DNA from: an uncultured Bacilli bacterium
Lineage (GTDB): Bacteria; Bacillota_I; Bacilli_A; RF39; UBA660
Assembly: GCA_947623995.1 (NCBI GenBank)
Contig: CANQIN010000004.1
Coordinates: 1 to 43,124 of the forward strand
Direction: 5' to 3'
DNA: 43,124 nt
Positions 1,143 through 38,816 of the stretch are shown here, in pieces. Every line of letters begins with the position of its first letter. Position 1 is the first letter of the stretch. The notes beneath the pieces are model-generated. The model was not told the DNA's origin. It saw nothing but the letters and a program-made list of their open reading frames with translations, and ran no database searches. A program made the translations under genes and the position numbers.

Positions 1143-1170
1143 ATAAAAAAAATTACATTTTTTAATGTAA
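1143..1170 (-). terminator. Intrinsic terminator of the cohesin/dockerin operon
   Basis: On the minus strand TTACATT, a 4-nt loop, AATGTAA and then a run of T. The upstream arm overlaps the stop codon of the last operon gene, so the operon ends here. Confidence 0.7.
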
Positions 1171-2028
1171 ATTTTTGCTTTTTTTAGACTTCTTATCTTT
1201 AATATTTTTCATAATTAAGATAAATATTAATAAAATTAAAACAATAATAATATAAATAATTATAGGTCTTTTTTTAACTACATTATATTGTTTTGTATTA
1301 ACTATTTCACCATATTCATTTGTTTCAACAATTTCTACTTTTCCAGGCTTATTAAAAGTAATAGTATTATCTTCATTAATTACTGCAATATCATTATTTG
1401 AAGATTCTAATTTATGATTATTTTCAAGATTATAATTAATCTTATTTCCAACTTTTACTTTTTCTATTTTTTTATCAGTAACTGTTTTTGAATTATCTTC
1501 TTTATTTGTTTTACTATTATTTTCACTATTATCATTCTGAACTTCTTTAGGATTTGTAATTGTAATTCTTCCATTAATTACTTGATATTCTAAAGTTTCT
1601 AAATCACTAGTTGCATAATCAGTAACATCTAAATTAATATCACTATCAAGGGCATTGTCATTAACTTTAAATTTTAATAATAAAAGGTTTTGATTATTAG
1701 TATATACTTCGTTAAAAGAAATTGCATAAAAAGAAATAATATTTGAATCATTTATAGCCAAGTCTTTCATACTAAAATTTTCAAAGCCAAGCATTTCTCC
1801 ATCAATATATGTTAAACTGTTTTCATCAAAATCTATTTTCATTCCTATTATACTAAAACCAACATTATTTTTAATAGCAATTGGAACTTCAATTTCTTCA
1901 CCAGTTTTTACAAGCGAATTACCCACTTCAAAAGTGGGTAATTCTGCTGCATCAATTTTTTTTAGAAAAAAGATGCTAATTAATAAGATAAATATATTAA
2001 TTATTTTTAATGATTTTATGTTTTGCAT
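1162..2028 (-). CDS. Membrane-anchored cohesin-domain protein
   Basis: An exported protein of about 288 residues. It has an N-terminal hydrophobic signal, a cohesin-like domain (about residues 30-155), an Asn/Lys/Ser-rich linker, a short Big_2-like segment, and a C-terminal transmembrane helix followed by a lysine-rich tail. The cohesin call rests on the pattern G-x-x-x-x-VPIAIKN, then GFSIIGMKIDFDENSL, then LLLLKFKV. The ATG at 2028 is preferred because GGAG lies nine bases before it. A TTG at 2043 has no site and sits inside the GGAG context. The start overlaps the end of the scaffold gene by 32 bases, suggesting translational coupling. Inferred role: a second, membrane-held docking partner for the dockerin proteins upstream. 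Sequence similarity to the scaffold's cohesin is low, so its specificity may differ. Confidence 0.75.
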   Translation of the reverse strand: MQNIKSLKIINIFILLISIFFLKKIDAAELPTFEVGNSLVKTGEEIEVPIAIKNNVGFSIIGMKIDFDENSLTYIDGEMLGFENFSMKDLAINDSNIISFYAISFNEVYTNNQNLLLLKFKVNDNALDSDINLDVTDYATSDLETLEYQVINGRITITNPKEVQNDNSENNSKTNKEDNSKTVTDKKIEKVKVGNKINYNLENNHKLESSNNDIAVINEDNTITFNKPGKVEIVETNEYGEIVNTKQYNVVKKRPIIIYIIIVLILLIFILIMKNIKDKKSKKSKNLH

Positions 2029-5000
2029 ATCCAAATACTCCAATTAATCCTAAAGAAATTATGGATAAAATCAAATTAACAATATTCGATGTAGCACCTG
2101 TTTGAGGGCTTACCAAATCTTCATTATTTGTGACATTTTCATCAGATGTATGTTCATCTTCAACTGGTTTTGCCATTACTTTAACTGTTAAAGTTTGTTT
2201 TTGACCATTTGATGCTGTAACGGTAATTGTTACTGTACCACTAGCTAGAGCTTTAAAATTACCATCTTTATCAATTGTTAAAATACTTTCATCACTTGAT
2301 TCATAAGTATATGTTAAATTATCTGTGTTATTTGCTGGATAAGCACTTACACCTAATTTACCACCATTTCCAACTGTAAGTTCATCAAGAGAATTAATTT
2401 GAATCTTTTCTACATGAATTTCATTAACTTTAATAGTTATTTCTTTTTCAATTTCACCAACGGTAACTTTTATTTTTGCTTCTCCTTCTTTTAGGGCTGT
2501 AACTTTACCATTTTCATCAACCGTTAAAATACTTTCATCACTAGAACTATATAATACATTATTTAACTCTGTAGTATCAATAGGATCTGGTGTGATTTCC
2601 ATATCATAAGTCTCACCTTTTAACATTTCTTCAGGTGCAGATATTTCGATATCATTTAATGGAATAATTTTAACTGTAACATTTATGTTAATACTCATTC
2701 CATTTTTTAATGTACCAGTTATAACTGTAGTACCTTCTTTTAAAGCTGTAATAACTCCTTCACTATTTACAGTTGCAACAGAATTTTCGCTACTAGACCA
2801 AGCAATAACTTTAGATTCAGTTGCATCACTTGGATTTATTTGATAAGAAACTTTAAAAGTTTTACCTTTAATAATTTCAATATCTTCTTTAGTTGGTGTA
2901 AATGAACTTATTGGAACAAATACATTTACTTTGATACTATCACTTTTATTATTAGCTGTTGCTGTTATTGTTACTGTACCAGCTTTTTTAGCAGTTACGA
3001 CACCAGTTGCACTAACAGAAGCTATATCATCATCACTACTTGACCATTTTAAAGTATATTCTTCGTTAGTATCACTAGGATTTACAGTAGCTGTTAAATT
3101 AGTTTCATGATTTTTTTCTAATTGCATTGTATTATCTGTTAAACCACTTTTTTCATTTATAACAACACTTTCAATTGGCGTAATTACATAAACAATAATT
3201 GTATCACTTTTGCCATCTTTTGTAGCAGTTATAATAGTTTGACCATTACTTAAAGCAGTTATCTCACCATTTTGATTAACTGTTGCAACTTCTTCACTAG
3301 AACTTTCCCAATGAGTTGGGGTTGTGTCAGTATAATCACTTGGATTTATTTTAATTTTGATAGTTTTAGTCGTATTTTTATTTACATTAATACTTTCTTT
3401 GCCATCTTCAAGAATTACTTCTGTTACTGGTACTTTTACTGTAACTGTAGCAGTTGCAGTTTTACCATTTTTTAAACGAGCTGTAATCGTTGCACTTCCA
3501 CCACCAACAGCTTTTAATAAACCACTAGTTTTATCAATTGTAGCAACATTAGGATTATCACTTTCCCATGTTACAGTTTTATCTTCTTCAGCAGTAGCTG
3601 GTTGGATATCAACGCTAAGATTTTTTGTTTCTCCTTTATTCATTGTTATATCACTATTTGGTAATATTGTAATTGAATCAATTGGAATTAATACTTTAAT
3701 ATTAACTGAATCACTTTTATCTTTATATCTTACAGTAATTGTTGCATCACCAGGTTGTAGAGCATGAACAGTTCCATCAGGATCAACACTTACAATATCT
3801 TCATGATCACTTTCCCAAGTAATTTTACTTTTTTCACTTGTATCACTAGGATTGATTTGTAAATTTAATTTTTTAGTTTGTGGTGCTACTAATGAGAAAT
3901 CTTCATCTAAGATATCCAAAGAGTCAATATCAACAAATACATGAACATTTACTTCAAAATTATATTCACCAATAGATGCTTTAATTACTGTATCGCCACC
4001 ACTAACAGCAGTTACTTTACCATTATTTACTGTAGCAACTTGTGGTTTAGTACTTTCCCATTTAATCGTTTTATTATCAGTTGTATTTAATGGATAATAT
4101 GTAACACTTAAATCTTTTGTAGCTCCACGATTTAAAGTAATATCTGCAGTTTCACTTATTGATGCACTTGTTATTGGAACTTTAACAGTTACATTAACAC
4201 TGGCAGAAATTCCAGTAGTAGTTTTCGCAATAATTTGGGTTGTTCCACCACTAACAGCAGTTATTTTACCATCTTCTACTTTAGCTATAGAGTTTTCTTT
4301 ACTTTCCCAAGTAATAGTTTCATCATCACTTGAGTTGCCATCAGGATTTTGTAAAACAATATTTGGTGTCACATTAATACTTCCATAAGTAATCCCACCA
4401 CCATTATTTTGCTTATCTAATATTTCTAATTCAACGTCTGATTGGTCTAATTGTAATTCTTTAATTGGATTAGTTACATTAAAAGTAATAGTTTTATCAT
4501 AACCGTATGCACTAACTTTTACTTTTGTTTCACCATTTTTAACAGCTTCAACTTTGCCAGTAGTAGAAACTGTAACACTTTCTCCACTTAATATACTATA
4601 ACTTTCATCTTTAGCAGTAGTAGTATTTGCTGGTGTGGGTGTAACATCTATTTGATAGGTATCACCCCAAAACAAATCAACATTTTCTTCTTTAACATTA
4701 ATACCAGTTGCGGGAACAAGAATTTTAATTTTACCTACCTCAGTTGTGTAAGTAGTAATATCTTCATCATTACCTGCATCTTCACTTAACTTCTTTTTAA
4801 ATTCGGTTACTGTTGCTTTAAATTCATAATCACCAGCAGCATTATCTTTGACTTTTAAAGTCATTTTACCAAATGCCCCATTATAATTAGTATTTATAGC
4901 ATCAGCTTCCGCAAAAGAAGCAGTAAACATACCTTTTGTATTATCATTAGAAGCTGCAGCGGCGTGTGCTCCAAAAGTTGTATAATAATCAACATATGTT

Positions 5001-5266
5001 GATTTATTTGGTTCTTCTACCTTAACAATTTCAAAAGCACTTGTATCAACTGGTACTTCTATACCAACTGCTGCATATTCGGTTGCTCCTTTTAACCCAA
5101 CATCCAAAACAATTGTATCCCCTGGATGTGCTTCTGTAATACTGACACCCTCAGAATCTTTTACTTGTACAGTAAATACTGAATTTTGATTTGCTAATAC
5201 ATAAATTGGTATTGCAAACACTAAAAGTACAAGTAAAAATAATGACATTTTTGATAATTTTTTCAT
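1997..5266 (-). CDS. Wall-anchored cohesin scaffold with ten Big_2 domains and SPQTG sorting signal
   Basis: A surface protein of about 1089 residues. Order: signal peptide (about 1-26); one cohesin-like domain (about 27-185), with HPGDTIVLDVGLKG, then AAVGIEVPVDTSAFEIV and GAFGKMTLKVKD; ten bacterial Ig-like group 2 repeats of about 80-90 residues, each with W-S-S/E-x4-A-V and G-x-V/I-T-A-x3-G signatures; an acidic linker; then SPQTG, a hydrophobic helix and a positively charged tail. SPQTG fits the (S/P)PxTG motif known for class B sortase in Clostridioides difficile, and a class B sortase is the next gene upstream. ATG 5266 is chosen because AAAGGG lies eight bases before it; a GTG nine bases earlier sits on that site. 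The Big_2 stalk probably holds the cohesin away from the wall. Confidence 0.88.
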   Translation of the reverse strand: MKKLSKMSLFLLVLLVFAIPIYVLANQNSVFTVQVKDSEGVSITEAHPGDTIVLDVGLKGATEYAAVGIEVPVDTSAFEIVKVEEPNKSTYVDYYTTFGAHAAAASNDNTKGMFTASFAEADAINTNYNGAFGKMTLKVKDNAAGDYEFKATVTEFKKKLSEDAGNDEDITTYTTEVGKIKILVPATGINVKEENVDLFWGDTYQIDVTPTPANTTTAKDESYSILSGESVTVSTTGKVEAVKNGETKVKVSAYGYDKTITFNVTNPIKELQLDQSDVELEILDKQNNGGGITYGSINVTPNIVLQNPDGNSSDDETITWESKENSIAKVEDGKITAVSGGTTQIIAKTTTGISASVNVTVKVPITSASISETADITLNRGATKDLSVTYYPLNTTDNKTIKWESTKPQVATVNNGKVTAVSGGDTVIKASIGEYNFEVNVHVFVDIDSLDILDEDFSLVAPQTKKLNLQINPSDTSEKSKITWESDHEDIVSVDPDGTVHALQPGDATITVRYKDKSDSVNIKVLIPIDSITILPNSDITMNKGETKNLSVDIQPATAEEDKTVTWESDNPNVATIDKTSGLLKAVGGGSATITARLKNGKTATATVTVKVPVTEVILEDGKESINVNKNTTKTIKIKINPSDYTDTTPTHWESSSEEVATVNQNGEITALSNGQTIITATKDGKSDTIIVYVITPIESVVINEKSGLTDNTMQLEKNHETNLTATVNPSDTNEEYTLKWSSSDDDIASVSATGVVTAKKAGTVTITATANNKSDSIKVNVFVPISSFTPTKEDIEIIKGKTFKVSYQINPSDATESKVIAWSSSENSVATVNSEGVITALKEGTTVITGTLKNGMSININVTVKIIPLNDIEISAPEEMLKGETYDMEITPDPIDTTELNNVLYSSSDESILTVDENGKVTALKEGEAKIKVTVGEIEKEITIKVNEIHVEKIQINSLDELTVGNGGKLGVSAYPANNTDNLTYTYESSDESILTIDKDGNFKALASGTVTITVTASNGQKQTLTVKVMAKPVEDEHTSDENVTNNEDLVSPQTGATSNIVNLILSIISLGLIGVFGYAKHKIIKNN
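2000..2110 (-). other. Sortase sorting signal of the scaffold (SPQTG, helix, basic tail)
   Basis: The codons for SPQTG occupy 2096-2110. They are followed by about 20 hydrophobic residues and then K/H-rich residues to the C terminus, the three-part layout of a cell-wall sorting signal. Confidence 0.85.
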
Positions 5267-5323
5267 TACTTTCACCCTTTCAATTTATTCAAATTTATCA
5301 CTTTAATCTTATCACTTTATTTT

Positions 5324-6055
5324 TTAATTGACAAGATTTTTTTCTTGGCTTTTTATGGCATGAACAATAATCCTTTTTTTGCCATTATTATTGCATGTTG
5401 ATAATGTAAGTGTCTTATCTTCTATCTTATTATATATATAATTTGAAGAAGATAAATCATAGTTATTCTTATTAATATCTAATGGTAATTCATCAGTTGG
5501 TGATGCTAAATAAGTTCTATAAATATCATAAGTTATTTCTTTATCAATTGTTGTAATTTTAATACTTATTTTATTTCCTAAATTACCATTTATTATTTTA
5601 ATCAAATCACTAAACATGGCCTCAGTATTCATATTATGACCATATATTATGGTATTATTATCATTAAATTCATGATTTCGATAATCCATAAATATTGAAC
5701 CATTACGATTATATTCTTTATTTATATCTCTATTTAAATAATAATTATTATTGCTTCCCTGTAATATTGGATAATTAATATTCGTATTTGGAATTGAAAT
5801 CCAACCTTTTACATCAGAATTTACCTCTTTTAATTTTTTTACATCAATATAATCATTAATTTCATTTGAATTATCATCTTCATTAATAATTGTATAATCA
5901 TTAATAATTTCTTGATACAAATTATTATTTTTTTTATCTTCAAATAAATTATGAAAATAATTATAAGAAGATAAAATAAAAATTATGATAAGTAATATTA
6001 ATATAAAATTTAAAATAAATAATTTATATTTCTTTTTTAATTTAAGTTTAGCCAT
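5324..6055 (-). CDS. Class B sortase
   Basis: A transpeptidase of 243 residues that would join sorting-signal proteins to the cell wall. It has an N-terminal membrane helix (about residues 11-30) with the enzyme outside. Class B features are visible: the KGWISIPNTNINYPILQ segment, the NRDINKEYNRNGSIFMDY stretch, catalytic His140 in YGHNM, Cys221 in LSTC and Arg228 in the strand after it. The start overlaps the stop of the upstream dockerin gene by eight bases (ATGGCTAA), and its ribosome site AAAGGA lies inside that gene's last codons. It sits between the dockerin cargo genes and the scaffold that bears SPQTG, so the scaffold is the obvious substrate. The substrate link is inference; the family call is firm. 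Confidence 0.93.
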   Translation of the reverse strand: MAKLKLKKKYKLFILNFILILLIIIFILSSYNYFHNLFEDKKNNNLYQEIINDYTIINEDDNSNEINDYIDVKKLKEVNSDVKGWISIPNTNINYPILQGSNNNYYLNRDINKEYNRNGSIFMDYRNHEFNDNNTIIYGHNMNTEAMFSDLIKIINGNLGNKISIKITTIDKEITYDIYRTYLASPTDELPLDINKNNYDLSSSNYIYNKIEDKTLTLSTCNNNGKKRIIVHAIKSQEKNLVN

Positions 6056-8783
6056 AATATAATCCTTTTTTCATATATAATCTTAAAATATCAACTGCAT
6101 CAATAGCCGTAATTCTTTGGTCGTTATTAAAATCACCTATTTCTATTTTATGATTAGTTAATTCTCTTTTTCCTAAAGCATAATATAATGCTTCTACGGC
6201 ATCTATTACTTCTATTTTACCATTCTCATTTAAATCACCTTTTAAAACATCACCAACAACTACCGTACATTTATCACTATATCCATTAGAAGCTGTAACG
6301 GTAATTGTCGCTATACCTTTGCCTGTAGCTTTAATCTTTCCAAATTTATCTACTGTAACAACTCCAACATTAGAAGTTTGCCAATCTGGATAATAATCAT
6401 TAGGATAAGTTGTAACTTTTAAATTTGCTGTATCACCAATATTTTTTAAATTAATAGAATGCGTATCTAAAACAGTATCATAAGAATAAATATTAATATA
6501 TGTTGTAACATCAGAATATCTTCCACTAACTCTATACTCAACATGTCCCATTCCACCTGCTGTAATTAAACCATCTTTAGAAATAATAATTTTAGAAGTA
6601 TTTCCATAACTAAACGAATAATTAATTGTATCATTAGCCGTTTTAGGTTCAATAATTGGTTTTAATTGATATGTTTGACCATTTCTTAAATAAATATCTG
6701 TCTTTTCAAATTTTAAAGAGGTCATTTTACCTATGGCATGAACATTTATTTCAACTTTAATACCACTTCCATCATTAGCAGTTCCAATTAATTTAGCATC
6801 GCCACCAGAAACAGCTCTTATCGTAACATGAGTAGCATCTATTTTATCTATTGCTACTATATCATCATTACTACTTTGCCAATTAATTTTTCGATCATAA
6901 GCAATATATGGTTGTCCAACATAAGTAATAGTTGTAGTTCTTCCTTCAACTAATTCAATATTTTTCTCATCAGGAATTAATTCAATTTCTTCTACTTTAT
7001 ATTTAACATCTAAAGTATAATCTAAAGAAACATTATAACGTTTATTTGTTACAGTGATAGTTGTTGTACCACTTTTTAAAATTGTTACATTACCACTATT
7101 ATCTACTGTTGCAACATAGTCATTACTACTATGCCATTCTAAATCACCATCTTTATTAGTTTTAACACTAAATTTATAATTTTTAATATTATTATCAGTT
7201 ATGTAAACAGTTTCATCTCCAACCCTTTCAAATTCTATAGATGAAGATGTTTTAGATATATCTAATTTATAAAAAGTAAGCCCATTGCTATCTTCTTGTG
7301 TCCAATAAATCAAATTACCTTTAGTATTTAAGTTAATTAACGATGAAACATTTATTGATTCAATTTCTAAAGGATTTTCTATAATATTACCATCACTATC
7401 AATTATCATATAATAATATTTTGAATCACCACTAAAATAATATTCTTTATCATGAGGAGCTGTCCAATTTTTTAAACCTTTTTCTAACCAAATAATCGCA
7501 ATATTACCATTATCTAATTTAGTTGCTCTTACATTAACAACACTTTTATTATAATCATTATAATCGGTTATCCATTTAACTCCATAATCAATAACTTGGG
7601 AATTAGATAACCTAAATTCTCCTTTATTTTGAATACTAGTTCTTTTTTCTTCACTTTTTCTTAAATCAGTCTTAAATTTTTGTAAAGTTTCGGAACTTTT
7701 GCCTTCAAAATTTTTATCTAATTTTTGAATAAAAATATTTCTTGGTTCATTAACTGATGAAGAATTAGCATAGTTTAATGATAAAGTTTTTTCACTAGCA
7801 CCTACAACTAAATAACCATCATTAAGTTCAATAATGTTTCCTAAGTTAGCATATGTATTATTATAACCATATTCACTATCATTTGCTTCACGAAAATGAA
7901 AAATATTATAAAGGTTATATTTAGCAGTTAAAGGATTACTGATACCATTTGTTTTAAATACTACTAAACTTCTGGGATTGGCATCTCCTTGATCGGCCAT
8001 TAAAAATTCATTATCACTTGTTCCAATTATTCTTTGAGCAAAAGAATGAGAAACCCAATGATACCTATTAATTCCATAATCGGTAAAATCACTAGATTTA
8101 TTTAAACAATCTAAAGAAGTAGCATCAAAAAATAAGGCAAAACTCATTTGATGACCATTATACATTTCTCTTGCAAAATTAACACCTATTATCCCATTAG
8201 ATACAGCCATATCAGCATTTCCAGCATTAAAAGCAATTTTTGTTCCATATTCTTTATCGTAACTAGTTAAACGACTTTTTGTTAAAGTAGGACTCATATC
8301 ATAGCCTTTTACTGATATTGTTTTAACTATCCCACCATTAGTATCATATTTGGCTAATAAAATAGTCGGTGTTGAAGCATAATCAGGACTACTTGCATCA
8401 ACTGTTTTATTATCAGTTGTTCCATATAATACATATAAATAGTTATTATAATAAAGAGCTGTTCCAAATAATGTTAAATAACGATTAATAGTTTTTTCTG
8501 AAACTTTATTACCATCTAAATCAAAAGTTGCCCATCCTAGCTTACTACTATTATTTTTTATTTCATAAATAACATTATAATTATTTTTATCATCAATAAA
8601 TTCATAATAATTAGCTTTTTCAGGATAATAAATAGTTCCATTGGCTCCTAAATCCTTAATTTCTTCTGGAATATTTTCAAGAGTAATCTTTTTTTCCTCA
8701 ACATAAGCTGTATTATAGGCTAAAACTTTAATTGGTATTAAAAATAGAATACTTAATATTAAAATCATTTTTATCTTTCTCAT
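6048..8783 (-). CDS. Secreted dockerin protein: beta-propeller-like region, Big_2 domains, C-terminal dockerin
   Basis: A 911-residue protein. Residues 1-22 are a signal peptide ending VLA. Residues about 40-510 are an unrecognised beta-rich region with repeated strand pairs such as LYVLYG, NEFLMADQ and GYLVVGASEK, which looks like a propeller but has no catalytic motif I can name. Residues about 515-845 hold four Big_2-like domains. Residues 847-911 are a type I dockerin with two calcium loops, DLNENGKIEVID and DFNNDQRITAID. Unlike its two siblings it ends KKGLYYG, because the reading frame continues through the ribosome site of the sortase gene. AAAGGAG eight bases before the ATG supports the start. 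It is the third gene of the operon, after the CAP-dockerin gene. Function unknown; probable surface or matrix component. Confidence 0.85.
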   Translation of the reverse strand: MRKIKMILILSILFLIPIKVLAYNTAYVEEKKITLENIPEEIKDLGANGTIYYPEKANYYEFIDDKNNYNVIYEIKNNSSKLGWATFDLDGNKVSEKTINRYLTLFGTALYYNNYLYVLYGTTDNKTVDASSPDYASTPTILLAKYDTNGGIVKTISVKGYDMSPTLTKSRLTSYDKEYGTKIAFNAGNADMAVSNGIIGVNFAREMYNGHQMSFALFFDATSLDCLNKSSDFTDYGINRYHWVSHSFAQRIIGTSDNEFLMADQGDANPRSLVVFKTNGISNPLTAKYNLYNIFHFREANDSEYGYNNTYANLGNIIELNDGYLVVGASEKTLSLNYANSSSVNEPRNIFIQKLDKNFEGKSSETLQKFKTDLRKSEEKRTSIQNKGEFRLSNSQVIDYGVKWITDYNDYNKSVVNVRATKLDNGNIAIIWLEKGLKNWTAPHDKEYYFSGDSKYYYMIIDSDGNIIENPLEIESINVSSLINLNTKGNLIYWTQEDSNGLTFYKLDISKTSSSIEFERVGDETVYITDNNIKNYKFSVKTNKDGDLEWHSSNDYVATVDNSGNVTILKSGTTTITVTNKRYNVSLDYTLDVKYKVEEIELIPDEKNIELVEGRTTTITYVGQPYIAYDRKINWQSSNDDIVAIDKIDATHVTIRAVSGGDAKLIGTANDGSGIKVEINVHAIGKMTSLKFEKTDIYLRNGQTYQLKPIIEPKTANDTINYSFSYGNTSKIIISKDGLITAGGMGHVEYRVSGRYSDVTTYINIYSYDTVLDTHSINLKNIGDTANLKVTTYPNDYYPDWQTSNVGVVTVDKFGKIKATGKGIATITVTASNGYSDKCTVVVGDVLKGDLNENGKIEVIDAVEALYYALGKRELTNHKIEIGDFNNDQRITAIDAVDILRLYMKKGLYYG
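6069..6246 (-). repeat. Dockerin-coding direct repeat, copy A
   Basis: 178 bases encoding the C-terminal dockerin. They match copies at 8800-8977 and 10829-11006 with only one or two visible substitutions, far closer than the rest of the three genes. Recent duplication or gene conversion is the likely cause. Confidence 0.9.
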
Positions 8784-8796
8784 TATCTTTGCTCCT

Positions 8797-10797
8797 TTAT
8801 TTCATATATAATCTTAAAATATCAACTGCATCAATAGCCGTAACTCTTTGGTCGTTATTAAAATCACCTATTTCTATTTTATGATTAGTTAATTCTCTTT
8901 TTCCTAAAGCATAATATAATGCTTCTACGGCATCTATTACTTCTATTTTACCATTTTCATTTAAATCACCTTTTAAATAAGGCGTAATTCCTGTTCCTAC
9001 TTTTACGGTAGCTTCAGCACTTTTACCATTACTTGTTGTAACAGTTATGGTACATGTTCCGTTTCCAATTCCCGTAATTTCACCTTTTCCAGCAACTCTT
9101 GCGACATTTACATTATCACTTTTCCATGTTAGAGTTGGACTATCTGTGGTATCAGTTGGATTAATTGTTGCAATTACTGTATCTTTACCACCTATTTTTA
9201 AAGTGATATTGTTTTTATTTAAATTAACACTTTCAATTTCTTTATAACCATTTGTATAGAAAAAATTATCATTGTATATATCTAAAATACTAGTTATATC
9301 TTCTAAATCAATATAGCCATTATTATTTATATCTCCTAAAATATTAATATCTTCATCAAAAGTTGCTGATATAGAATAATCTTGTAACATCGATGAATCA
9401 ATTGAATTAATATTTCCATCTTTGTTTACATCACCAATGTATCCTTTAGAACCGTCACTTAAGGTTACGGGAACACTTACATATATTAAGCAACTTGCAC
9501 TTCCATATTTTAAAGAAGTTGCAGTTACCCGAACAAATCCTCCTCTTTTTGGAGTTACTACCCCATTATTTACACTAGCAACTAAATCGGAGTCCGTTTT
9601 CCAAGTTACATCGTTTGCTTTACTTCCATTACTTAATGTTGCTTCTAACTTTAAAGTCTCATTTAAACTATTAAATTGATATTGAGTATTATTTAACTTT
9701 AAACGAATATCTTCTTCTACTTTTACTTTAAAGGATGCTCGAAAACTTTTATTTATAGACATTCCCGAAACATTTATAGTGGTACTTCCTTTGGAAACAC
9801 CGACTATTTTATCATCTTCTATTTTAGCAATTTCTGGACTTTGCGATGTATAGGTAACAGAGTATATTGTCGCATTACTAGGAACGATAGTAGGACTAAT
9901 TTTTTTAGTTTCATTTATTTTTACAGTCATATCATTTACACTAAAGCTATCCATTATATAACCAACATCAATTGGAAATTCTTTTTCCATACCAAACATC
10001 GATGCTTTGAAAGTTGTTTGTCCTTCTTTTACTCCCATTATCAAACCATCTTTTAAACTTAAATAAGGACTATTTAAAGTATTAAATTTAACATTAGAAA
10101 TATCAATGGTTGCTTTGGTATCTTCATCACTAATATAATAGGCATTTTTAATGTTTAGGGTTTCTCCTATGCCAACATAATAATGTTCTGTCGTACCATT
10201 ATAATTACTATGATATAAATTAAAATCATGAATATATTCGGGAATACTTTCTACATATTCAATCATCGTATCACTTTTTCCAGTTTTATTTGGAGTACTT
10301 ATGGCATCATATCTTGAAAACATTTGAACAGCAAAATAAGTTTTTGAACCACTATATTCTACAGCAACAGCTCCAATACCAACAGATTTATAATCTTCCT
10401 TAATCATATTTTTATAATGCCCTGGCGATTCTTTCCAACCATACATTACCCCAGAATTCCCTGTTCTATATCCATATAAAATATTTTCACCTGAAGCACT
10501 TGGAGTTGAAACAGCTGTATAAAATGATTTACCATTAGGTCTTGTATGGTCAAAATGAACAGCAATTTCAGCTGCTCTTTTCATGGCTGCTTCTTGTAAA
10601 TTACTATCCATTGTTAAAGGTTCACTATTTACTTCTTTTCTTACTTCATTTGTTGCAGTTAATGCTTCATTGGCCCAATCATAATCCCTTATTACAGTTA
10701 TAGGAATATTATAGGATTCTAAAGCATGAGCATTATTGCAAAATAAGCCAACTACAATCAGCAAAACCGTAATATATAGACGCATCAATCTTTTCAT
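8797..10797 (-). CDS. Secreted CAP (SCP/PR-1) domain protein with Big_2 domains and two dockerins
   Basis: A 666-residue protein. Signal peptide about 1-25 (ends NNAHA). The CAP domain at about 40-165 shows the bacterial YkwD-like pattern: His84 in HFDHTRPNG, Glu104 in GENILYG, His127 in SPGHYKNM, then GIGAVAV and YFAVQMF. Next are Big_2-like domains (about 280-450), an internal dockerin-like pair (DVNKDGNINSID and DINNNGYIDLED), another Big_2, and a C-terminal dockerin at about 608-666 that ends MK. AGAGG eight bases before the ATG supports the start. Its last 300 residues are paralogous to those of the next gene upstream. CAP proteins in bacteria are of mixed or unknown biochemical role, so the activity is not assigned; docking to a cohesin is inferred from the dockerin. 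Confidence 0.9.
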   Translation of the reverse strand: MKRLMRLYITVLLIVVGLFCNNAHALESYNIPITVIRDYDWANEALTATNEVRKEVNSEPLTMDSNLQEAAMKRAAEIAVHFDHTRPNGKSFYTAVSTPSASGENILYGYRTGNSGVMYGWKESPGHYKNMIKEDYKSVGIGAVAVEYSGSKTYFAVQMFSRYDAISTPNKTGKSDTMIEYVESIPEYIHDFNLYHSNYNGTTEHYYVGIGETLNIKNAYYISDEDTKATIDISNVKFNTLNSPYLSLKDGLIMGVKEGQTTFKASMFGMEKEFPIDVGYIMDSFSVNDMTVKINETKKISPTIVPSNATIYSVTYTSQSPEIAKIEDDKIVGVSKGSTTINVSGMSINKSFRASFKVKVEEDIRLKLNNTQYQFNSLNETLKLEATLSNGSKANDVTWKTDSDLVASVNNGVVTPKRGGFVRVTATSLKYGSASCLIYVSVPVTLSDGSKGYIGDVNKDGNINSIDSSMLQDYSISATFDEDINILGDINNNGYIDLEDITSILDIYNDNFFYTNGYKEIESVNLNKNNITLKIGGKDTVIATINPTDTTDSPTLTWKSDNVNVARVAGKGEITGIGNGTCTITVTTSNGKSAEATVKVGTGITPYLKGDLNENGKIEVIDAVEALYYALGKRELTNHKIEIGDFNNDQRVTAIDAVDILRLYMK
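8800..8977 (-). repeat. Dockerin-coding direct repeat, copy B
   Basis: The same 178-base unit as copies A and C, with one I-to-V coding change in RxTAID. Identity with copy C continues without a break for about another 80 bases, to about 9060, into the neighbouring Big_2 domain and then decays. Confidence 0.9.
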
Positions 10798-10825
10798 AAA
10801 AAATACCTCTTTTTCATTTTTTCTC

Positions 10826-13657
10826 CTATTTCATATATAATCTTAAAATATCAACTGCATCAATAGCCGTAATTCTTTGGTCGTTATTAAAATCACCTAT
10901 TTCTATTTTATGATTAGTTAATTCTCTTTTTCCTAAAGCATAATATAATGCTTCTACGGCATCTATTACTTCTATTTTACCATTTTCATTTAAATCACCT
11001 TTTAAATAAGGCGTAATTCCTGTTCCTACTTTTACGGTAGCTTCAGCACTTTTACCATTACTTGTTGTAACAGTTATGGTACATGTTCCATTTCCAATTC
11101 CTGTAATCTCACCTTTCCCATCAACTCTTGCAACACTTGCATTATCACTTTTCCAAGTTAATTTAGGACTATCAGTAGTATCAGTTGGATTAATAGTCGC
11201 AATTAAAGTATCATTACCACCAATATTTAAAGTTATATTGTTTTTATTTAAAGTAACACTTTTTATTTCTTTATAAGCTCCTGGAGTAAAATATCGATAT
11301 TTATATAAAGACATTATTACAGCACTATCAGCAGTAGTTATTCCTCCATCATTATCTAAATCACCAATTAATATCTGGTCTTTATTTGCTCCATATTTAA
11401 ATAAATTTAGGATTTCACTAGAATCAGCCAAATCAAATTGTCCATCTTTATTTAAGTCACCAACATATTGTTTAGAACCATCACTTAAGGTTACGGGAAC
11501 ACTTACATATATGTAACAACTTGTACTACCATATTTTTTAGAAGTTGCTGTAGCATAAACAAGTCCACCTCGCTTTGGTGTTACTAATCCATTATTTATA
11601 CTAATAACTTCATTATTATCAACACTCCAAGTTACATCATTTACTTTACTGCCATTATTTAAAGTAGCTTCTAATCTTAAAGTTTCATTTAAACTATTAA
11701 ATTGATAAATACTATAATTTAATTTTAAATAAATATCAGTAACATTAACATTTATTGTGGTAGTATTACCTGTAACAGTTTTAACTGAAATAGTTGTTTG
11801 ACCTTTAGAAAGTAATTTAATTTTACCATTATCTACTGTTGCAACACTTTTATCAGTACTATCCCAAATTAATTTTTCAGGATAATAATATTTAGGAGTT
11901 AATGTATACTTTAAATCAATAACGTCATTTACATTACCATTTATTTCTTTATCGCTAAATGTTACTTTAGAAACTAAATCTTGATATTCTATATTATTAT
12001 TTTCAGCATAAGAAGCAGTTTTAGTATTTTCATGTAAATAGACAGTTGATGTTAAATCACCAAAATTCATATAATCAATATTTTCACTTTCAATAATAAT
12101 TTCTTCTAAATTTTTACTATTATTAAACGCATTATCACCAATTTCTTTAACATTAGATGGAATTATAACAGCATTTAATTGATTAGATTGACTAAATGCT
12201 GAAGCACCAATATATTCTACACTTGATGGAATAGTTAAAACTCCAGTTAAATTACGATTCCAAGAAAATGTACCACTAGAAATATATTTTAAATTATTAC
12301 TAAGTTTTAATGAACTTATATTAATTTCATCAAAAGCAGAACTACCAATATAAGTAACATTATCAGGAATAACTAAATCTCCTTTAATTGGTACATAAGT
12401 AAATGCACTACGACCAATAGATTTTAAAGTTGTTGGTAATTTTAAAGTAGTATCAAAACTTTTAGAATAAGCAAAAGCATTATTACCAATATATTCCAAT
12501 TGACTAGGAAGTTTTAATTCACCAGAAAATGAAGAATTTCTAAATGCTTCGATACCAATTCCAATTACAGGTTTATTATTTATTTTATCTGGTAAAACTA
12601 AATTACCACTCGGAATTTCCCCATTTTTTCCTTCAGCACCTAAAATTACAATATGTTTATTTGATTCAATATATCTTAATCGATAATTTTCATTAGTAAC
12701 ATCATAATATCCAAGTTTAGACCAATCATTTAAATTTCCTAATTTATTACTAGTAGCCTTGTTATTAGAATCTAGAGTTACATAATAAATAATTCCATCA
12801 ATGGTATATACCCCATTAATAGTAGCTGAAGATGTAGAAGATTTGATTTTATTAATAGCATTATTAGTTATGTTATATGTATATAAATTTTTATCATTAC
12901 CAACATAATATAATAAATTACCATCTTTTACTAAACCAGAATTAAAATTATCATATAAAGCATCAGCAATTTTTTCTTTACTACCACTATTAATATTTTC
13001 TTTATATAAAGTACTAGCCCATCCAGGTTTATATTCACTATCAATATAATATTTATAAGTATCAGTATAATATGTTTGAGAATATATTGAATAATCATTT
13101 TGACTAGTTACACCATTAGGAAAAGATGAAGAATTTTTAAAAAAATTATTACTATCTAATCTAACATCTGAAAAATTAAACATTGATGCCAATTGTTTTG
13201 GAAAGTCATCTCTACTCTTAAATTTAACCGTAAAATCAATACGGTTAGGATGATTACCAGTTCCTGCAGTTGCATCAAAATAAGTCCATTCATTATCTAA
13301 GTTACATATGTTCCAAGCATGGTCACCCATATTACTAGATACTCTTTCACATGATAATCCAGCCGTTTGATTTAATAATCGAAAGGCATCATTAAAACCA
13401 GCACATACAGAATTATGTTCAAGAAATACTGAATAATAGCTTTGGTCATATTTTGCAGCTCCATAATCATTTCCAAGTTGTGTATAAACTCCAAAAAACA
13501 TTGCCTTATCATGGTCACTCATATTATCATTTACCTGTTCCATAGCATACAAAATATTTTGCTCAATTAATGCATTATCACTATCATCAAGAGCTTTAAC
13601 CACATTAATAAAACTTAAAAAAACAATAATAACAAAGCTTAATCTTATTTTACGCAT
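10826..13657 (-). CDS. Secreted transglutaminase-like, BspA-type LRR protein with Big_2 domains and two dockerins
   Basis: A protein of about 943 residues from ATG 13657, chosen because AAAGGA lies ten bases before it and a signal peptide starts directly. An in-frame start 21 codons earlier lacks these. Order: a transglutaminase-like core with Cys85 in NSVCAGFND, His113 in GDHAWNI and Asp128 in YFDATAGTG, a complete triad; a beta-strand region resembling propeller repeats; six or more BspA-type leucine-rich repeats (GNNAFAYS, GRSAFTYV, GSSAFDEI, GASAFSQS, GDNAFNNS); Big_2 domains; an internal dockerin-like pair (DLNKDGQFDLAD and DLDNDGGITTAD); Big_2; and a C-terminal dockerin. It is the first gene of the operon. 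The triad suggests protein cross-linking or cysteine proteolysis outside the cell; which one is not known. Confidence 0.9.
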   Translation of the reverse strand: MRKIRLSFVIIVFLSFINVVKALDDSDNALIEQNILYAMEQVNDNMSDHDKAMFFGVYTQLGNDYGAAKYDQSYYSVFLEHNSVCAGFNDAFRLLNQTAGLSCERVSSNMGDHAWNICNLDNEWTYFDATAGTGNHPNRIDFTVKFKSRDDFPKQLASMFNFSDVRLDSNNFFKNSSSFPNGVTSQNDYSIYSQTYYTDTYKYYIDSEYKPGWASTLYKENINSGSKEKIADALYDNFNSGLVKDGNLLYYVGNDKNLYTYNITNNAINKIKSSTSSATINGVYTIDGIIYYVTLDSNNKATSNKLGNLNDWSKLGYYDVTNENYRLRYIESNKHIVILGAEGKNGEIPSGNLVLPDKINNKPVIGIGIEAFRNSSFSGELKLPSQLEYIGNNAFAYSKSFDTTLKLPTTLKSIGRSAFTYVPIKGDLVIPDNVTYIGSSAFDEINISSLKLSNNLKYISSGTFSWNRNLTGVLTIPSSVEYIGASAFSQSNQLNAVIIPSNVKEIGDNAFNNSKNLEEIIIESENIDYMNFGDLTSTVYLHENTKTASYAENNNIEYQDLVSKVTFSDKEINGNVNDVIDLKYTLTPKYYYPEKLIWDSTDKSVATVDNGKIKLLSKGQTTISVKTVTGNTTTINVNVTDIYLKLNYSIYQFNSLNETLRLEATLNNGSKVNDVTWSVDNNEVISINNGLVTPKRGGLVYATATSKKYGSTSCYIYVSVPVTLSDGSKQYVGDLNKDGQFDLADSSEILNLFKYGANKDQILIGDLDNDGGITTADSAVIMSLYKYRYFTPGAYKEIKSVTLNKNNITLNIGGNDTLIATINPTDTTDSPKLTWKSDNASVARVDGKGEITGIGNGTCTITVTTSNGKSAEATVKVGTGITPYLKGDLNENGKIEVIDAVEALYYALGKRELTNHKIEIGDFNNDQRITAIDAVDILRLYMK
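10829..11006 (-). repeat. Dockerin-coding direct repeat, copy C
   Basis: Third copy of the 178-base dockerin unit. It matches copy B through about 11089, after which silent and coding differences accumulate. Confidence 0.9.
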
Positions 13658-20269: not shown

Positions 20270-21265
20270 TTACCTCCCTATACCACACGTTGATAAATCA
20301 TATAACCCAAAAATATGAAATAACAAATCTAATAACAATGGTAAAAAAACAACTAAAACCGCAATAAAAATACGTTTAATAGTTCTCATATTTGCTTTTT
20401 TAGTATCTCCATTACTTAAAGCTTTTATATAATCAATAATTGTTAAAACTATAGCAATTACAGGCGCTAAAAACTGCATAATACCAAAAATTCCATCCAA
20501 TAGTTTTTTAAATTCAGTTGGTTCCCCATTAGAATTAAGCAAAATAGTCTTACATGTAAAATCATTACTACTATCTAATTTTCCAATATAACCATCTTCA
20601 TAAGGATCATCAGTCCGGCCATCACTAGCTGATTCAGACGTATCATCATCAACACTAACAGTTTGATTATATTTTAATCTTATTATTTTATATACATAAG
20701 CAATAAAACCTTTTCTTAAAAAAGATTTCCATATGCCACCATCTGCCTGAGTTAACGTTGTACTTTTTCCAGCATCATAGTATTGCTTTACACCATTTTT
20801 AGTGCCAATATAAATATTTATGTGACCATCATAACCAACAATATCTCCAGGTTGTAAATCAATATCATCAGGACTTTTTCCCTTATATGAATATATATCA
20901 GCAACTGCTTCTAAACGTTTTTGAGTTTTCATCGTTCCTTTAGGACGATACTCAATTTCATGGTCATCATTCATCCAAATTTGATTGTCTTTTCCAAAAG
21001 CTCCAAATCTTTGTAAAGCATGAACTACCATTAAAGCACAATTACTTCTATGTGAACTAGCAGCTCTTGCATCCAAATAATATCTTTTATTTTCACTGTT
21101 AGAATAAAACCAATCACCATCTTCAACCATAATATCAGTCCATGCTTGAACATTCTTAAGCCATTCATCACGAGATCCAAGAGTAATTTTCTTAGCATAA
21201 ACATTTTCACTAAATATAAAAGCCACAACAATAAAAAAAGATATAATTAAAACTTTTTTATTCAT
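20270..21265 (-). CDS. Exported NlpC/P60-like cysteine peptidase fused to a TrbC/VirB2-like membrane module
   Basis: 331 residues. Signal peptide about 1-24. Residues about 60-195 resemble an NlpC/P60- or CHAP-type papain-fold peptidase: Cys76 in HRSNCALMVVHAL, the LQPGDIVGYDGHINIYIG segment with His148, and a later YYDAG. A linker rich in D/S/T follows (about 200-235). Residues about 235-331 carry CKTIL, two membrane helices separated by a basic loop (SNGDTKKANMRTIKR) and a short tail with a Cys, the layout of TrbC/VirB2-like proteins. AGAGG seven bases before the ATG supports the start. Likely a membrane-tethered cell-wall hydrolase; substrate unknown. The fusion is unusual. Confidence 0.72.
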   Translation of the reverse strand: MNKKVLIISFFIVVAFIFSENVYAKKITLGSRDEWLKNVQAWTDIMVEDGDWFYSNSENKRYYLDARAASSHRSNCALMVVHALQRFGAFGKDNQIWMNDDHEIEYRPKGTMKTQKRLEAVADIYSYKGKSPDDIDLQPGDIVGYDGHINIYIGTKNGVKQYYDAGKSTTLTQADGGIWKSFLRKGFIAYVYKIIRLKYNQTVSVDDDTSESASDGRTDDPYEDGYIGKLDSSNDFTCKTILLNSNGEPTEFKKLLDGIFGIMQFLAPVIAIVLTIIDYIKALSNGDTKKANMRTIKRIFIAVLVVFLPLLLDLLFHIFGLYDLSTCGIGR

Positions 21266-23146: not shown

Positions 23147-24502
23147 TTATCCTAAAATAAAGGGATTTTCTACGCTTCCATATTCTAATTCCGAATGAGA
23201 ATTTGAAATTACCTTAACATCAGATTTTAAATATATTGTTGGCCAAACTCCAAGCGAAAGATCAACCCTAACTCGAAAATCTATATGCGCTGTAGAATAA
23301 ATAAGAAAAGCTCCATTACTTGAACTAGAATTAGGAGAAAGAGTCCAAAAAAAACTTCCTTTATTTAGCCAATTATTTGACGTACATTCATCATCTTTAT
23401 AATTATACAAATTTTTTAATAAACAAGTATTTCTAAATTTACCCCCAATTCCATATCCATAGTCTGACGGATACAATAACGCTACTCCATTATGTTTATT
23501 TAAAACATCAGTGGTTTGACTCCATACAGTTTGTCTAACTGTTCCAGTATATACTGTCTTACCACGCTCCTTTTCATAAAATTGGTCAGCTGTTAAATTA
23601 GAATCTATAACACCACCTATATTCCAAATCACATCTTTATCTATTATCGATCTTGCCTTGTCATCTAAACCCTTTGGTTCTTTACCATTACCCGTAAAAT
23701 CACATTGATTAGCATTACTACTTTCTTGATAACAATCTCCACTTTCACTACTATAATATATTCCATTTAGCATATCTTTTAGTTGACTATCAGTCCAATC
23801 ATTACTTCCATTATTAGCATTTGAACTTCCAACCCCACTTAACTTAAAATCCCAACTGTATTTTCCAAAATCTTTTTGATCAAGAACTCCATCTTGTCTT
23901 ATAATCTTTAATCGTTGTTCTACTCCAGTTTCTGTTTTAACATTTACTAAACCTATAACTCTCCATATTTCATTATTAAATGAAACATAATTATTTGGAT
24001 TAGATCCAGCATATCGATATTCAGTCTTATTCCAATCACTACCTAATTCTTTTAAATCATTATGTTCTACTTTATATAATCCATCACCATATCCAACAAC
24101 CGGAATTTCTATCTCACCAAAATTTATATATTCTTGTTCTTTAAAATATAAACTACACTTAGTTTTACTTTTACTTAAATTTTTAACTAAAGGCGCCCAT
24201 TCTTCATTATCCCATTCAATACTCGCTCCATTATCACATTTTCCATAACTAAATATTATTTTATCTGAATTATCTTTTAAAGGCATTTCTTCTAATTTAT
24301 CACTTCCATTATAAAACGCAAAATCTACATCACTATTATCAAAATAATCTACTTGACCTTTCATCATAGAAAATTCTCCTTTTTCAGAAAAAAACGCAAA
24401 AGTTTTATATAGAAGTAATGATAAACTTATTAACACTATTACACTTAGACTTATTAATATCACTTTTTTTCTTTTTTCATTTTTATACTTTTCTAGCTTC
24501 AT
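23147..24502 (-). CDS. Membrane-anchored surface protein with DUF6273-like C-terminal domain
   Basis: 451 residues. A basic N terminus and one membrane helix (about 13-32) lead to YKTFAFFSEKGEFSMMKGQV, a camelysin/TasA-like beginning. The C-terminal domain (about 125-451) has WRVIGLVN, YSWDFKLSG, WTDSQLKDMLNG, LLYPSDYGYGIGG and WTLSPNSSS, a pattern like DUF6273. The same domain closes the 1952-residue protein at 32931-38789. Paired cysteines (DCYQ, QCDF, TCLL, ECTS) suggest disulfides outside the cell. GGTGA five bases before the ATG supports the start. The promoter is the poly-G element at 24525-24581. Adhesive or structural role is inference; the domain's biochemical function is not known to me. 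Confidence 0.75.
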   Translation of the reverse strand: MKLEKYKNEKRKKVILISLSVIVLISLSLLLYKTFAFFSEKGEFSMMKGQVDYFDNSDVDFAFYNGSDKLEEMPLKDNSDKIIFSYGKCDNGASIEWDNEEWAPLVKNLSKSKTKCSLYFKEQEYINFGEIEIPVVGYGDGLYKVEHNDLKELGSDWNKTEYRYAGSNPNNYVSFNNEIWRVIGLVNVKTETGVEQRLKIIRQDGVLDQKDFGKYSWDFKLSGVGSSNANNGSNDWTDSQLKDMLNGIYYSSESGDCYQESSNANQCDFTGNGKEPKGLDDKARSIIDKDVIWNIGGVIDSNLTADQFYEKERGKTVYTGTVRQTVWSQTTDVLNKHNGVALLYPSDYGYGIGGKFRNTCLLKNLYNYKDDECTSNNWLNKGSFFWTLSPNSSSSNGAFLIYSTAHIDFRVRVDLSLGVWPTIYLKSDVKVISNSHSELEYGSVENPFILG

Positions 24503-24581: not shown

Positions 24582-25535
24582 TTATAGAAAGTTCATTACT
24601 AAATCAATTATTATTTCCTTTTCTTTAGGATTAGATTGAGCAATAAGTAAAGTAATTGCTACAAGAGTATTGTTATCTATAATTAGTTCATTTTCTTTGT
24701 ATAAAATATTATAAAAATTTAAAAAGAAAATAAATAAAGTAGCCGCAATTCTTTTATTACCATCAATAAAAGTATGATTTTTAGTAATTAAATATAAAAA
24801 ATTAGCAGCTTTCTCTTCAACAGTAGGATATAAATCATTACCATCAAAAGATTGATATATATTATTAATAATTGAATTTAAACCTTTATCTCTTTCTAAA
24901 GCAAACAATTCACTATCACTGTTAAATTTTAATTTATTAATAACATCAATACAATCTTCATAAGTAACTTTTTGATTATTTCTAGTACCTTTAGGTTTTG
25001 TTACTCTCTTATGGTCATAATCATCAAGCAAATTTAAAGCATTTGAGTATTCATTAATTACTTTAATTATTTCTTTAGCTTCATTATCTTTTAAATCACT
25101 ATCAATTCTTCCAGCAATATTAATTAACTTAACAGTTTTTTCAAGATATTCTAATCTTTTTTGATTAACTGCATAACCTTTAACCATATAATCTTTTAAA
25201 ACATTAGTTGCCCACTTTCTAAAAATAATACCATTTCTTGACTTAACTCGATAGCCAACACTTATAATCATATCAAGATTATAATATTCCAATTCTCGAG
25301 TTTGAGTTTTATCCTTTAAAGCCCCATGTTTAGTGGTATGTGCAAATTTTGCACATACTTCATTTTTTACTAATTCTCCTTCATTAAAAATATTATTAAT
25401 ATGTCTAGTAATAACAGTTCTATCTCTATCAAATAATGTTGCCATTTGTTCTTGGGTAAGCCAAACCGTTTCATCTTTCATATTTACTTCTAATTTAACA
25501 TTTTGATTTTCAAATAATATAATTCCATTTTTCAT
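24582..25535 (-). CDS. RhuM-family protein with C-terminal Fic/Doc domain
   Basis: About 317 residues. The N-terminal two-thirds is the RhuM family: ETVWLTQEQMATLFDRDRTV with a helix-turn-helix-like start, then ISVGYRVKSRNGIIFRKWA. The C-terminal third is a Fic/Doc fold with HTFIDGNKRIA, where His254 is the expected catalytic residue for moving AMP or phosphate onto a protein. AGGAGGAG nine bases before ATG 25535 sets the start; the TTG two codons earlier is too close. Promoter TTGACA-18-TATAGT and TAGCA/TGCTA dyads lie upstream, as for self-regulated toxin genes. No separate antitoxin is seen. The target protein is unknown; the name virulence RhuM is historical. Confidence 0.88.
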   Translation of the reverse strand: MKNGIILFENQNVKLEVNMKDETVWLTQEQMATLFDRDRTVITRHINNIFNEGELVKNEVCAKFAHTTKHGALKDKTQTRELEYYNLDMIISVGYRVKSRNGIIFRKWATNVLKDYMVKGYAVNQKRLEYLEKTVKLINIAGRIDSDLKDNEAKEIIKVINEYSNALNLLDDYDHKRVTKPKGTRNNQKVTYEDCIDVINKLKFNSDSELFALERDKGLNSIINNIYQSFDGNDLYPTVEEKAANFLYLITKNHTFIDGNKRIAATLFIFFLNFYNILYKENELIIDNNTLVAITLLIAQSNPKEKEIIIDLVMNFL

Positions 25536-25566
25536 TAACAATTTCTCCTCCTTGTAATTTAATTTT

Positions 25567-38789: not shown

Positions 38790-38816
38790 TAATAGCACCT
38801 TCTATCCTTTATTAAT

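Follow-up and report, generated by a model that had tools for sequence, protein, structure and literature searches.

The window, a stretch of 43,124 nucleotides from an uncultured Bacilli bacterium of the rabbit gut (UBA660), carries an operon of six ORFs, all on the minus strand and transcribed from 13657 to 1162. They encode three secreted cargo proteins, a class-B-like sortase, a predicted wall-anchored cohesin protein, SCA, and a predicted membrane-anchored one, COH. The six co-directional genes with tiny gaps or overlaps described in an initial annotation were found as such, the intergenic distances ranging from -47 to +48 bp. Since promoter and terminator scans of the operon gave nothing better than shuffles, a single transcript is suggested solely by the gene spacing. 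The cohesin/dockerin surface gene set that had been noted is real and is confirmed here. The domain inventory given with it also holds, but it had overlooked an LRR_5 array and the internal dockerins of two cargo proteins.

Cargo proteins and sortase

The first cargo protein (10826..13657) consists of a signal peptide, a transglutaminase-like domain (about 12968-13582), an LRR_5 array (12023-12592; Pfam LRR_5, 158 bits), Big_2, an internal dockerin, again Big_2 and a C-terminal dockerin. The transglutaminase-like module had been proposed before; it agrees with the match to the transglutaminase-related NCBIfam family MAG6410 (9e-11) and with a Cys-His-Asp triad seen in the alignment, but the Transglut_core score of 15.1 bits lies below the Pfam cut-off of 23, as does that of the orthologue in L101 (21.3). 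The triad is present in four of the five orthologues aligned (window, L057, L059 and L101) and lacks its Cys and Asp in L122; because of this last protein, the cross-linking role once suggested for the complex is weak.

The second cargo protein (8797..10797) has a signal peptide, the CAP domain already annotated (10318-10662; Pfam CAP, 67 bits), Big_2, an internal dockerin, Big_2 and a C-terminal dockerin; the CAP-site residues are not retained in the homologues from L102 and L117. The third one, PROP (6048..8783), is composed of a signal peptide, an N-terminal domain of about 490 residues (7254-8717), Big_2 and a C-terminal dockerin. The N-terminal domain had been called propeller-like, which we could not support: it has no Pfam match, a PROP profile found nothing in the PDB, the AlphaFold model from the single sequence has a pLDDT of 36 and self-comparison for repeats gave a weak self-similarity (P 0.008) that is not convincing.

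The sortase gene (5324..6055) matches PF04203 (68 bits) and, by far best, the class B family TIGR03064 (2.7e-40), and the catalytic motifs YGHNM (His), TLSTC and KKR (Arg) are all found in the alignment. The earlier assignment to class B thus agrees with the best match and the catalytic residues, but the TIGR03064 score, 138.2 bits, is under the cut-off of 153.75. Outside this operon, the genome contains a second sortase-like gene (L068).

Two cohesin proteins with different predicted anchors

COH (1162..2028) is made of a signal peptide, a cohesin (1534-1950), a short linker, a C-terminal membrane helix (about 1192-1287) and a basic tail. As annotated, its domain is a cohesin: it scores 35.1 bits with PF00963 (cut-off 24.1) and its profile finds cohesins in the PDB (best E 1.7e-4).

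SCA (1997..5266) starts with a signal peptide and an N-terminal domain (4712..5191), followed by 9 to 10 Big_2 domains, where ten had been counted, and by the expected sorting signal, SPQTG (2096..2110), after which come hydrophobic residues and a basic tail. In other loci the homologous positions read NPQTG, SPETG, SPKTS, APQTG, NPKTG and IPQTG. Purified SrtB of Clostridium difficile, also a class B sortase, cuts exactly SPQTG, and its substrates carry (S/P)PXTG (PMC4155245). It differs in being the sole sortase of C. difficile, whereas the sortase described here adjoins its predicted substrate in a genome with a second sortase-like gene.

The N-terminal domain of SCA from the window has no PF00963 match of its own at E 1. 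Nevertheless, profile, homologue and fold evidence indicate that it is a cohesin, as had been proposed. Homologues of the domain in G025 (32.4 bits) and L059 (42.2 bits) exceed the PF00963 cut-off, most PDB matches of the family profile are cohesins (best E 2.8e-4, to type II cohesins), and a Foldseek search with the domain model (mean pLDDT 65), the fold check proposed earlier, returned mostly cohesins among the top matches (best E 1.8e-6). On structural re-alignment, pilin and adhesin Ig-like domains score equal to cohesins. This last result would fit an explanation in which what resembles a cohesin is an Ig-like adhesin domain and the dockerins are stabilising calcium caps, the two not being partners. 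We consider it very improbable, since the sequence profiles find mainly cohesins, COH passes the PF00963 cut-off and the loci read, from seven genera, link cohesins with dockerins.

A C-terminal dockerin common to the three cargo proteins

The C-terminal type I dockerins reported for the three exported proteins were all recovered above the Pfam cut-off of Dockerin_1 (PF00404, 22.9), at about 33 bits: in the transglutaminase-like protein at 10856..11002 (33.3 bits), in the CAP protein at 8827-8973 and in PROP at 6096-6242 (33.3 bits). They have the duplicated F-hand calcium loops, with D-x-N/D-x-N/D and D12 in both halves. The dockerin tract of the three genes shows 98-99% DNA identity over about 180 nt and, on the PROP side, the homogenised tract ends at the dockerin boundary.

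We also compared the C-terminal dockerins of other loci. Unrelated cargo proteins of the same locus have dockerins with a mean identity of 86% (range 74-100%), against a mean of 38% and a maximum of 65% between loci, and grouping the dockerins by cargo type revealed no clustering. This within-locus similarity was matched by none of 20,000 label shuffles in a permutation test, which was preferred to a dockerin tree because the tree has few strongly supported forks. Judging from these sequences, likeness within a locus combined with divergence between loci appears to be the signature of a common binding partner; gene conversion without selection could be an alternative origin of the homogenised dockerins.

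The internal dockerins lie at 11288..11464 in the transglutaminase-like protein (76 bits with a dockerin profile built in this study) and at 9292-9435 in the CAP protein (Dockerin_1 above the Pfam cut-off). They share 36% identity while their flanking Big_2 domains share 76-86%, so that they form islands of divergence between homogenised flanks.

Recurrence and known cohesin-dockerin systems

The search of related genomes that had been recommended showed that COH and SCA (1035-1160 aa, 9 to 10 Big_2) occur as pairs, adjacent or a few genes apart, in seven genera of one family, the source genus and six related ones; such recurrence argues that the gene set is not due to chance. The family has further cohesin proteins, about 2400-3200 aa or 430-600 aa long, which belong to a different set and were excluded from these counts. 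A sortase is present in most loci read, the exceptions being L103, a short contig, and L122, where none was seen near the operon. The cargo classes recur as well in several of the genera, transglutaminase-like-LRR proteins in five diverged loci, CAP proteins in four and PROP in three. In mirror-tree comparisons over nine loci, dockerin distances correlated with those of COH (0.44) and SCA (0.42), and since the Big_2 stalk correlated better (0.57), the analysis singles out neither cohesin as the one that binds.

The distribution is nevertheless patchy, with 5 of 37 genomes of the genus and about 2% of the sampled genomes of the family. This argues against a core envelope function, and the ten-Big_2 stalk is directed outward, so that we regard as unlikely a role at the cell's own envelope, in which cargo docked at the membrane or wall would act on the cell wall, remodelling or stabilising it, or would mediate aggregation by binding to the cell itself or to sister cells. 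Such a role would agree with the membrane anchor of COH, which keeps it near the cell, and with a separate dockerin protein of the same genus that has an SH3 domain and whose neighbour, a membrane protein, contains a cadherin-like domain. Across the whole source genome, only one other dockerin protein was found, with SH3_3.

Cohesins and dockerins fit together like lock and key and, outside systems such as this one, are familiar above all from the cellulosomes that digest cellulose. A multi-enzyme cellulosome was rejected for this operon: SCA and COH have one cohesin each, unlike a multi-cohesin scaffoldin, and the cargo carries no CAZyme. Pfam gives LRR_5, CAP, Big_2 and Dockerin and no glycoside hydrolase, no cellulase is present in the cargo examined from the source and related loci, and no carbohydrate-binding module was detectable on scaffold or cargo (Pfam, E 0.1), the PROP domain having no Pfam or PDB match. 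The initial annotation of a cohesin/dockerin surface system devoid of cellulase cargo is therefore well supported, the more so as the genes are conserved as a set across further genera. The cellulosome logic it invoked needs changing, since nothing here resembles a multi-enzyme scaffold; with one cohesin, each anchor would present a single cargo protein at any moment.

A reduced degradative complex for proteins or mucus, in which the transglutaminase-like domain would be a cysteine protease, CAP and PROP would bind the substrate and docking would gather them on the cell surface to digest host glycoproteins, seems improbable to us. The triad kept in most orthologues, a zinc-peptidase-like motif on some further cohesin-bearing proteins of this family (L058) and the cohesin-dockerin mucinolysome of gut Limousia (PMC12997984) speak for it. 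However, single-cohesin anchors do not allow clustering on one scaffold, neither glycoside hydrolases nor carbohydrate-binding modules accompany the cargo, and the missing residues in L122 (triad) and in L102 and L117 (CAP site) fit it poorly. The mucinolysome resembles the present system as a host-facing gut assembly with an LPxTG single-cohesin anchor, cSca5, but is a multi-enzyme glycosidase complex on scaffoldins. Similarly, the cohesin modules of Clostridium perfringens (PDB 2jh2, 2vo8, 2w1n), which the structural comparisons of the SCA domain also returned, are non-cellulosomal and located on surface proteins of a gut bacterium; they are carried by surface glycosidases (glycoside hydrolases), whereas no glycosidase is found here.

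No described counterpart of the gene set was known to the initial annotation, but its logic has a precedent. The closest one for surface docking is ScaE of Ruminococcus flavefaciens, a sortase-anchored protein whose single cohesin binds group-4 dockerins, taking dockerin proteins one at a time; some group-4b dockerins are carried by transglutaminase-like and LRR proteins, encoded in a head-to-tail gene row and with conserved C-terminal parts (PMC5301203, PMC2930009). ScaE belongs to a full cellulosome with cellulases, whereas the system described here occurs by itself, in genomes that measure about 1 to 1.6 Mb, and adds a sortase of its own, the stalk of ten Big_2 domains and, in COH, a second cohesin with a membrane anchor.

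A proposed surface-docking system with interchangeable heads

Taken together, these data lead us to propose, with a probability of roughly three in four, that the operon encodes a non-cellulosomal cohesin-dockerin surface-docking system that presents interchangeable heads on a long stalk, the binding itself being deduced from sequence. The three cargo proteins would be exported, each with the same C-terminal calcium-binding dockerin as a common address tag. The adjacent sortase would attach SCA covalently at SPQTG, so that SCA presents its single cohesin at the tip of a stalk of about ten Big_2 domains, and COH would keep the second cohesin near the membrane. Any cargo could then dock on any free cohesin, giving a surface mosaic of transglutaminase-like-LRR, CAP and PROP heads. 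The most likely part played by COH is to hold back freshly exported cargo at the membrane or to present it at that site. We infer adhesion as the likeliest role: adhesion or host interaction by the heads is plausible, and they would most likely bind, and perhaps modify, proteins of the host, of mucus or of neighbouring cells.

More tentatively, and with the odds against it, the operon may hold a two-address display code, the C-terminal dockerin being the common tag for one cohesin and the internal dockerins cargo-specific tags for other partners, which would place the heads in a defined arrangement.

Single purified domains would suffice to test the hypothesis, even though the bacteria are uncultured, and, if it holds, these compact new cohesin-dockerin pairs may be of use in protein engineering. 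If the docking proposal is correct, cohesin-dockerin docking would mount interchangeable surface proteins as a stand-alone system, beyond cellulosomes, in uncultured gut Bacilli with small genomes, and it would suggest, in concrete terms, how these bacteria might contact the host or their neighbours. If the two-address code is also true, cohesin-dockerin pairing would be a general means of surface-protein attachment in this family of gut Bacilli, unrelated to polysaccharide digestion.

The six-gene operon and its cohesins

Six open reading frames lie in a row on the minus strand, from 13657 to 1162, with a spacing of -47 to +48 bp. In this order they encode a transglutaminase-like/LRR_5 protein, a CAP protein, PROP (6048..8783), which has a 490-residue domain without assigned fold, a class-B-like sortase, SCA (1997..5266), composed of a cohesin, ten Big_2 domains and the sorting signal SPQTG, and COH (1162..2028), a cohesin with a membrane helix. 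Pfam detects Dockerin_1 in all three cargos (the first three proteins), and also CAP, LRR_5, Big_2 and Sortase. The cohesin/dockerin operon described in the initial annotation is correct; the internal dockerins of the CAP and transglutaminase-like proteins and the LRR_5 array had been overlooked.

The COH domain, searched alone, matches PF00963 with 35.1 bits (cut-off 24.1) and was also matched in the genome search; a Pfam scan of the whole protein gave no match. Pfam did not match the N-terminal domain of SCA in the window, but its homologues, one from genome G025 (92% identical across the domain) and one from locus L059, score as cohesins with 32.4 and 42.2 bits, respectively. A profile built from five SCA domains retrieved mostly cohesins among PDB sequences, chiefly of type II (best E 2.8e-4). 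With a single-sequence model of the domain (mean pLDDT 65), Foldseek ranks 1-10 were all cohesins or cohesin-containing complexes (best E 1.8e-6). When this model was re-aligned with VIA-align 2, pilin/adhesin Ig-like domains reached Z 14.0 and cohesins Z 12.5; since the former rank as high as cohesins, the fold is not decisive by itself and the predicted cohesin identity of SCA is decided by sequence profiles. Both domains can be assigned as proposed. SCA and COH are only distant relatives of each other (hhalign 81%).

Elsewhere in the window, we observed a 319-aa protein combining RhuM-like and Fic domains (24582-25541) and an exported 331-aa protein with C-terminal membrane helices and no convincing Pfam match (20270-21265). 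A 1955-aa exported repeat protein (32931-38798) and a 451-aa protein (23147-24502) have C-terminal regions that look alike by eye, and their relatives adjoin cohesin loci in other genomes, e.g. L067 and L068.

Distribution in the genus and family

A search of related genomes for the same gene order had been suggested as a check. The gene set is present in 5 of the 37 genomes of the genus, all compared genomes being incomplete MAGs. Besides the window's own genome (G000), these are G025 (98-100% identical), G022 (84-95%), G032 (locus L057, 39-58%, with every gene type except PROP in the stretch read and a second transglutaminase-like-LRR protein) and G009 (L059, about 24-36%). The COH profile gave strong matches in six further genera of the family (G120, G193, G200, G242, G388 and G330); a sample of 296 genomes of the class yielded only one match outside the family, a weak one. 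At these loci SCA (1035 to 1160 residues, 9 to 10 Big_2) is the immediate neighbour of COH or a few genes away from it. The transglutaminase-like-LRR cargo occurs in the window, L057, L059, L101 and L122, and the CAP cargo in the window, L057, L102 and, by alignment, L117. PROP is found in the window, in L059 and, as two copies, in L122; a three-row PROP profile, run on a sample of 291 genomes of the family, added no further genome, and PROP is nevertheless present in G330 (L122), a genome reached via COH. Such a patchy spread suggests gain and loss, or transfer. Downstream of the G022 operon there is a serine-recombinase-like gene (L056 1668-3254, 528 aa, by sequence), a possible sign of mobility.

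Of the 243 family genomes sampled for cohesins as such, 120 have them. L058 (8743-15852) and the similar loci L062, L063, L064 and L067 encode ~2400-aa proteins with a cohesin match at the N-terminus; in L058, the only one of these read over its whole length, the protein further contains a membrane helix, a stretch resembling a dockerin and the zinc-peptidase-like motif SHENAH. L104 (1997-19669), L108 (3294-11979), L109 (6681-14914) and L110 (4173-12341) are other operons of the family, in which a cohesin protein bearing a C-terminal membrane helix is paired with a neighbour of very large size that, in some of them, weakly matches dockerin; they are a different set. On contig 18 of G000, L068 (7859-11304) encodes the genome's fourth dockerin protein, which has 619 aa, an N-terminal SH3_3 and a C-terminal dockerin. 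The next gene encodes a membrane protein of 527 aa that contains a cadherin-like domain and whose homologues adjoin dockerin matches in about 17 other genus genomes; the two may form a separate candidate docking pair. At 12823-15216 of L068, a second sortase-like gene (252 aa) adjoins that of a 529-aa protein whose end comprises VPKTG followed by a hydrophobic segment and a basic tail; the two are predicted to form a sortase-substrate pair of their own.

A shared C-terminal dockerin and cargo-specific internal ones

The C-terminal dockerins have canonical calcium-loop residues in both halves. Those of unrelated cargos from the same locus are 74-100% identical (mean 86), versus at most 65% (mean 38) between loci, a contrast reached in 0 of 20,000 label shuffles; grouped by cargo type, they did not cluster. 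The final 180 nt are 98-99% identical across the three cargo genes of the window, and the similarity to PROP stops at the dockerin edge. This alikeness is probably maintained by gene conversion, and homogenised copies in five diverged loci are expected if one partner serves all cargos. L102 and L117 contain a cargo with the C-terminal dockerin only, yet both cohesins; as judged from sequence, the C-terminal tag must therefore serve at least one of the two. A mirror-tree analysis singled out neither SCA nor COH as its partner.

The internal dockerins of the transglutaminase-like and CAP proteins are only 36% (window) and 25% (L057) identical, whereas identity between these proteins is 50-86% in the flanking Big_2 domains and 97-98% in the C-terminal dockerins. 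Between orthologues, internal dockerins are 56 and 72% identical. Being alike between orthologues and unlike within a locus, they are cargo-specific.

Proposed working and role of the heads

A cellulosome requires scaffoldins with several cohesins each, and CAZymes among its cargo. We found neither here, so the operon was rejected as a cellulosome, and the earlier statement that cellulase-type cargo is missing holds. The nearest precedent is ScaE of R. flavefaciens, likewise a single sortase-anchored cohesin, which binds group-4 dockerins (PMC5301203); in our case docking is predicted from the genes. Group-4b dockerins are carried there by transglutaminase-like and LRR proteins whose genes follow one another in a row and whose C-termini are conserved (PMC2930009). 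Docking of single proteins via cohesin and dockerin is thus already known in principle, but the open-access literature searched yielded no operon that, unlike the R. flavefaciens system, stands alone outside a cellulosome and combines a dedicated sortase and a fixed ten-Big_2 stalk with a membrane cohesin.

After export, the cargos would dock to a cohesin by their C-terminal dockerin. The adjacent sortase, which keeps the catalytic His, TLSTC and Arg, would attach SCA covalently; C. difficile SrtB cleaves precisely SPQTG (PMC4155245). With its lone cohesin at the tip of a ten-Big_2 stalk, each SCA anchor would carry one head (the N-terminal part of a cargo), and COH would supply a second, membrane-proximal docking site.

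As for the heads, degradation and envelope work are rivals to adhesion. The transglutaminase-like triad is whole in 4 of 5 orthologues; that of L122 (9592-12975) lacks the stretch bearing the catalytic Cys and also the Asp, and is possibly a pseudoenzyme retained for binding. CAP-site residues are not retained in L102 and L117. Together this favours binding over catalysis by the predicted heads. Adhesive surface proteins commonly contain domains of the BspA-type LRR, CAP and Big_2 kinds, and adhesion is our first choice for the role of the heads.
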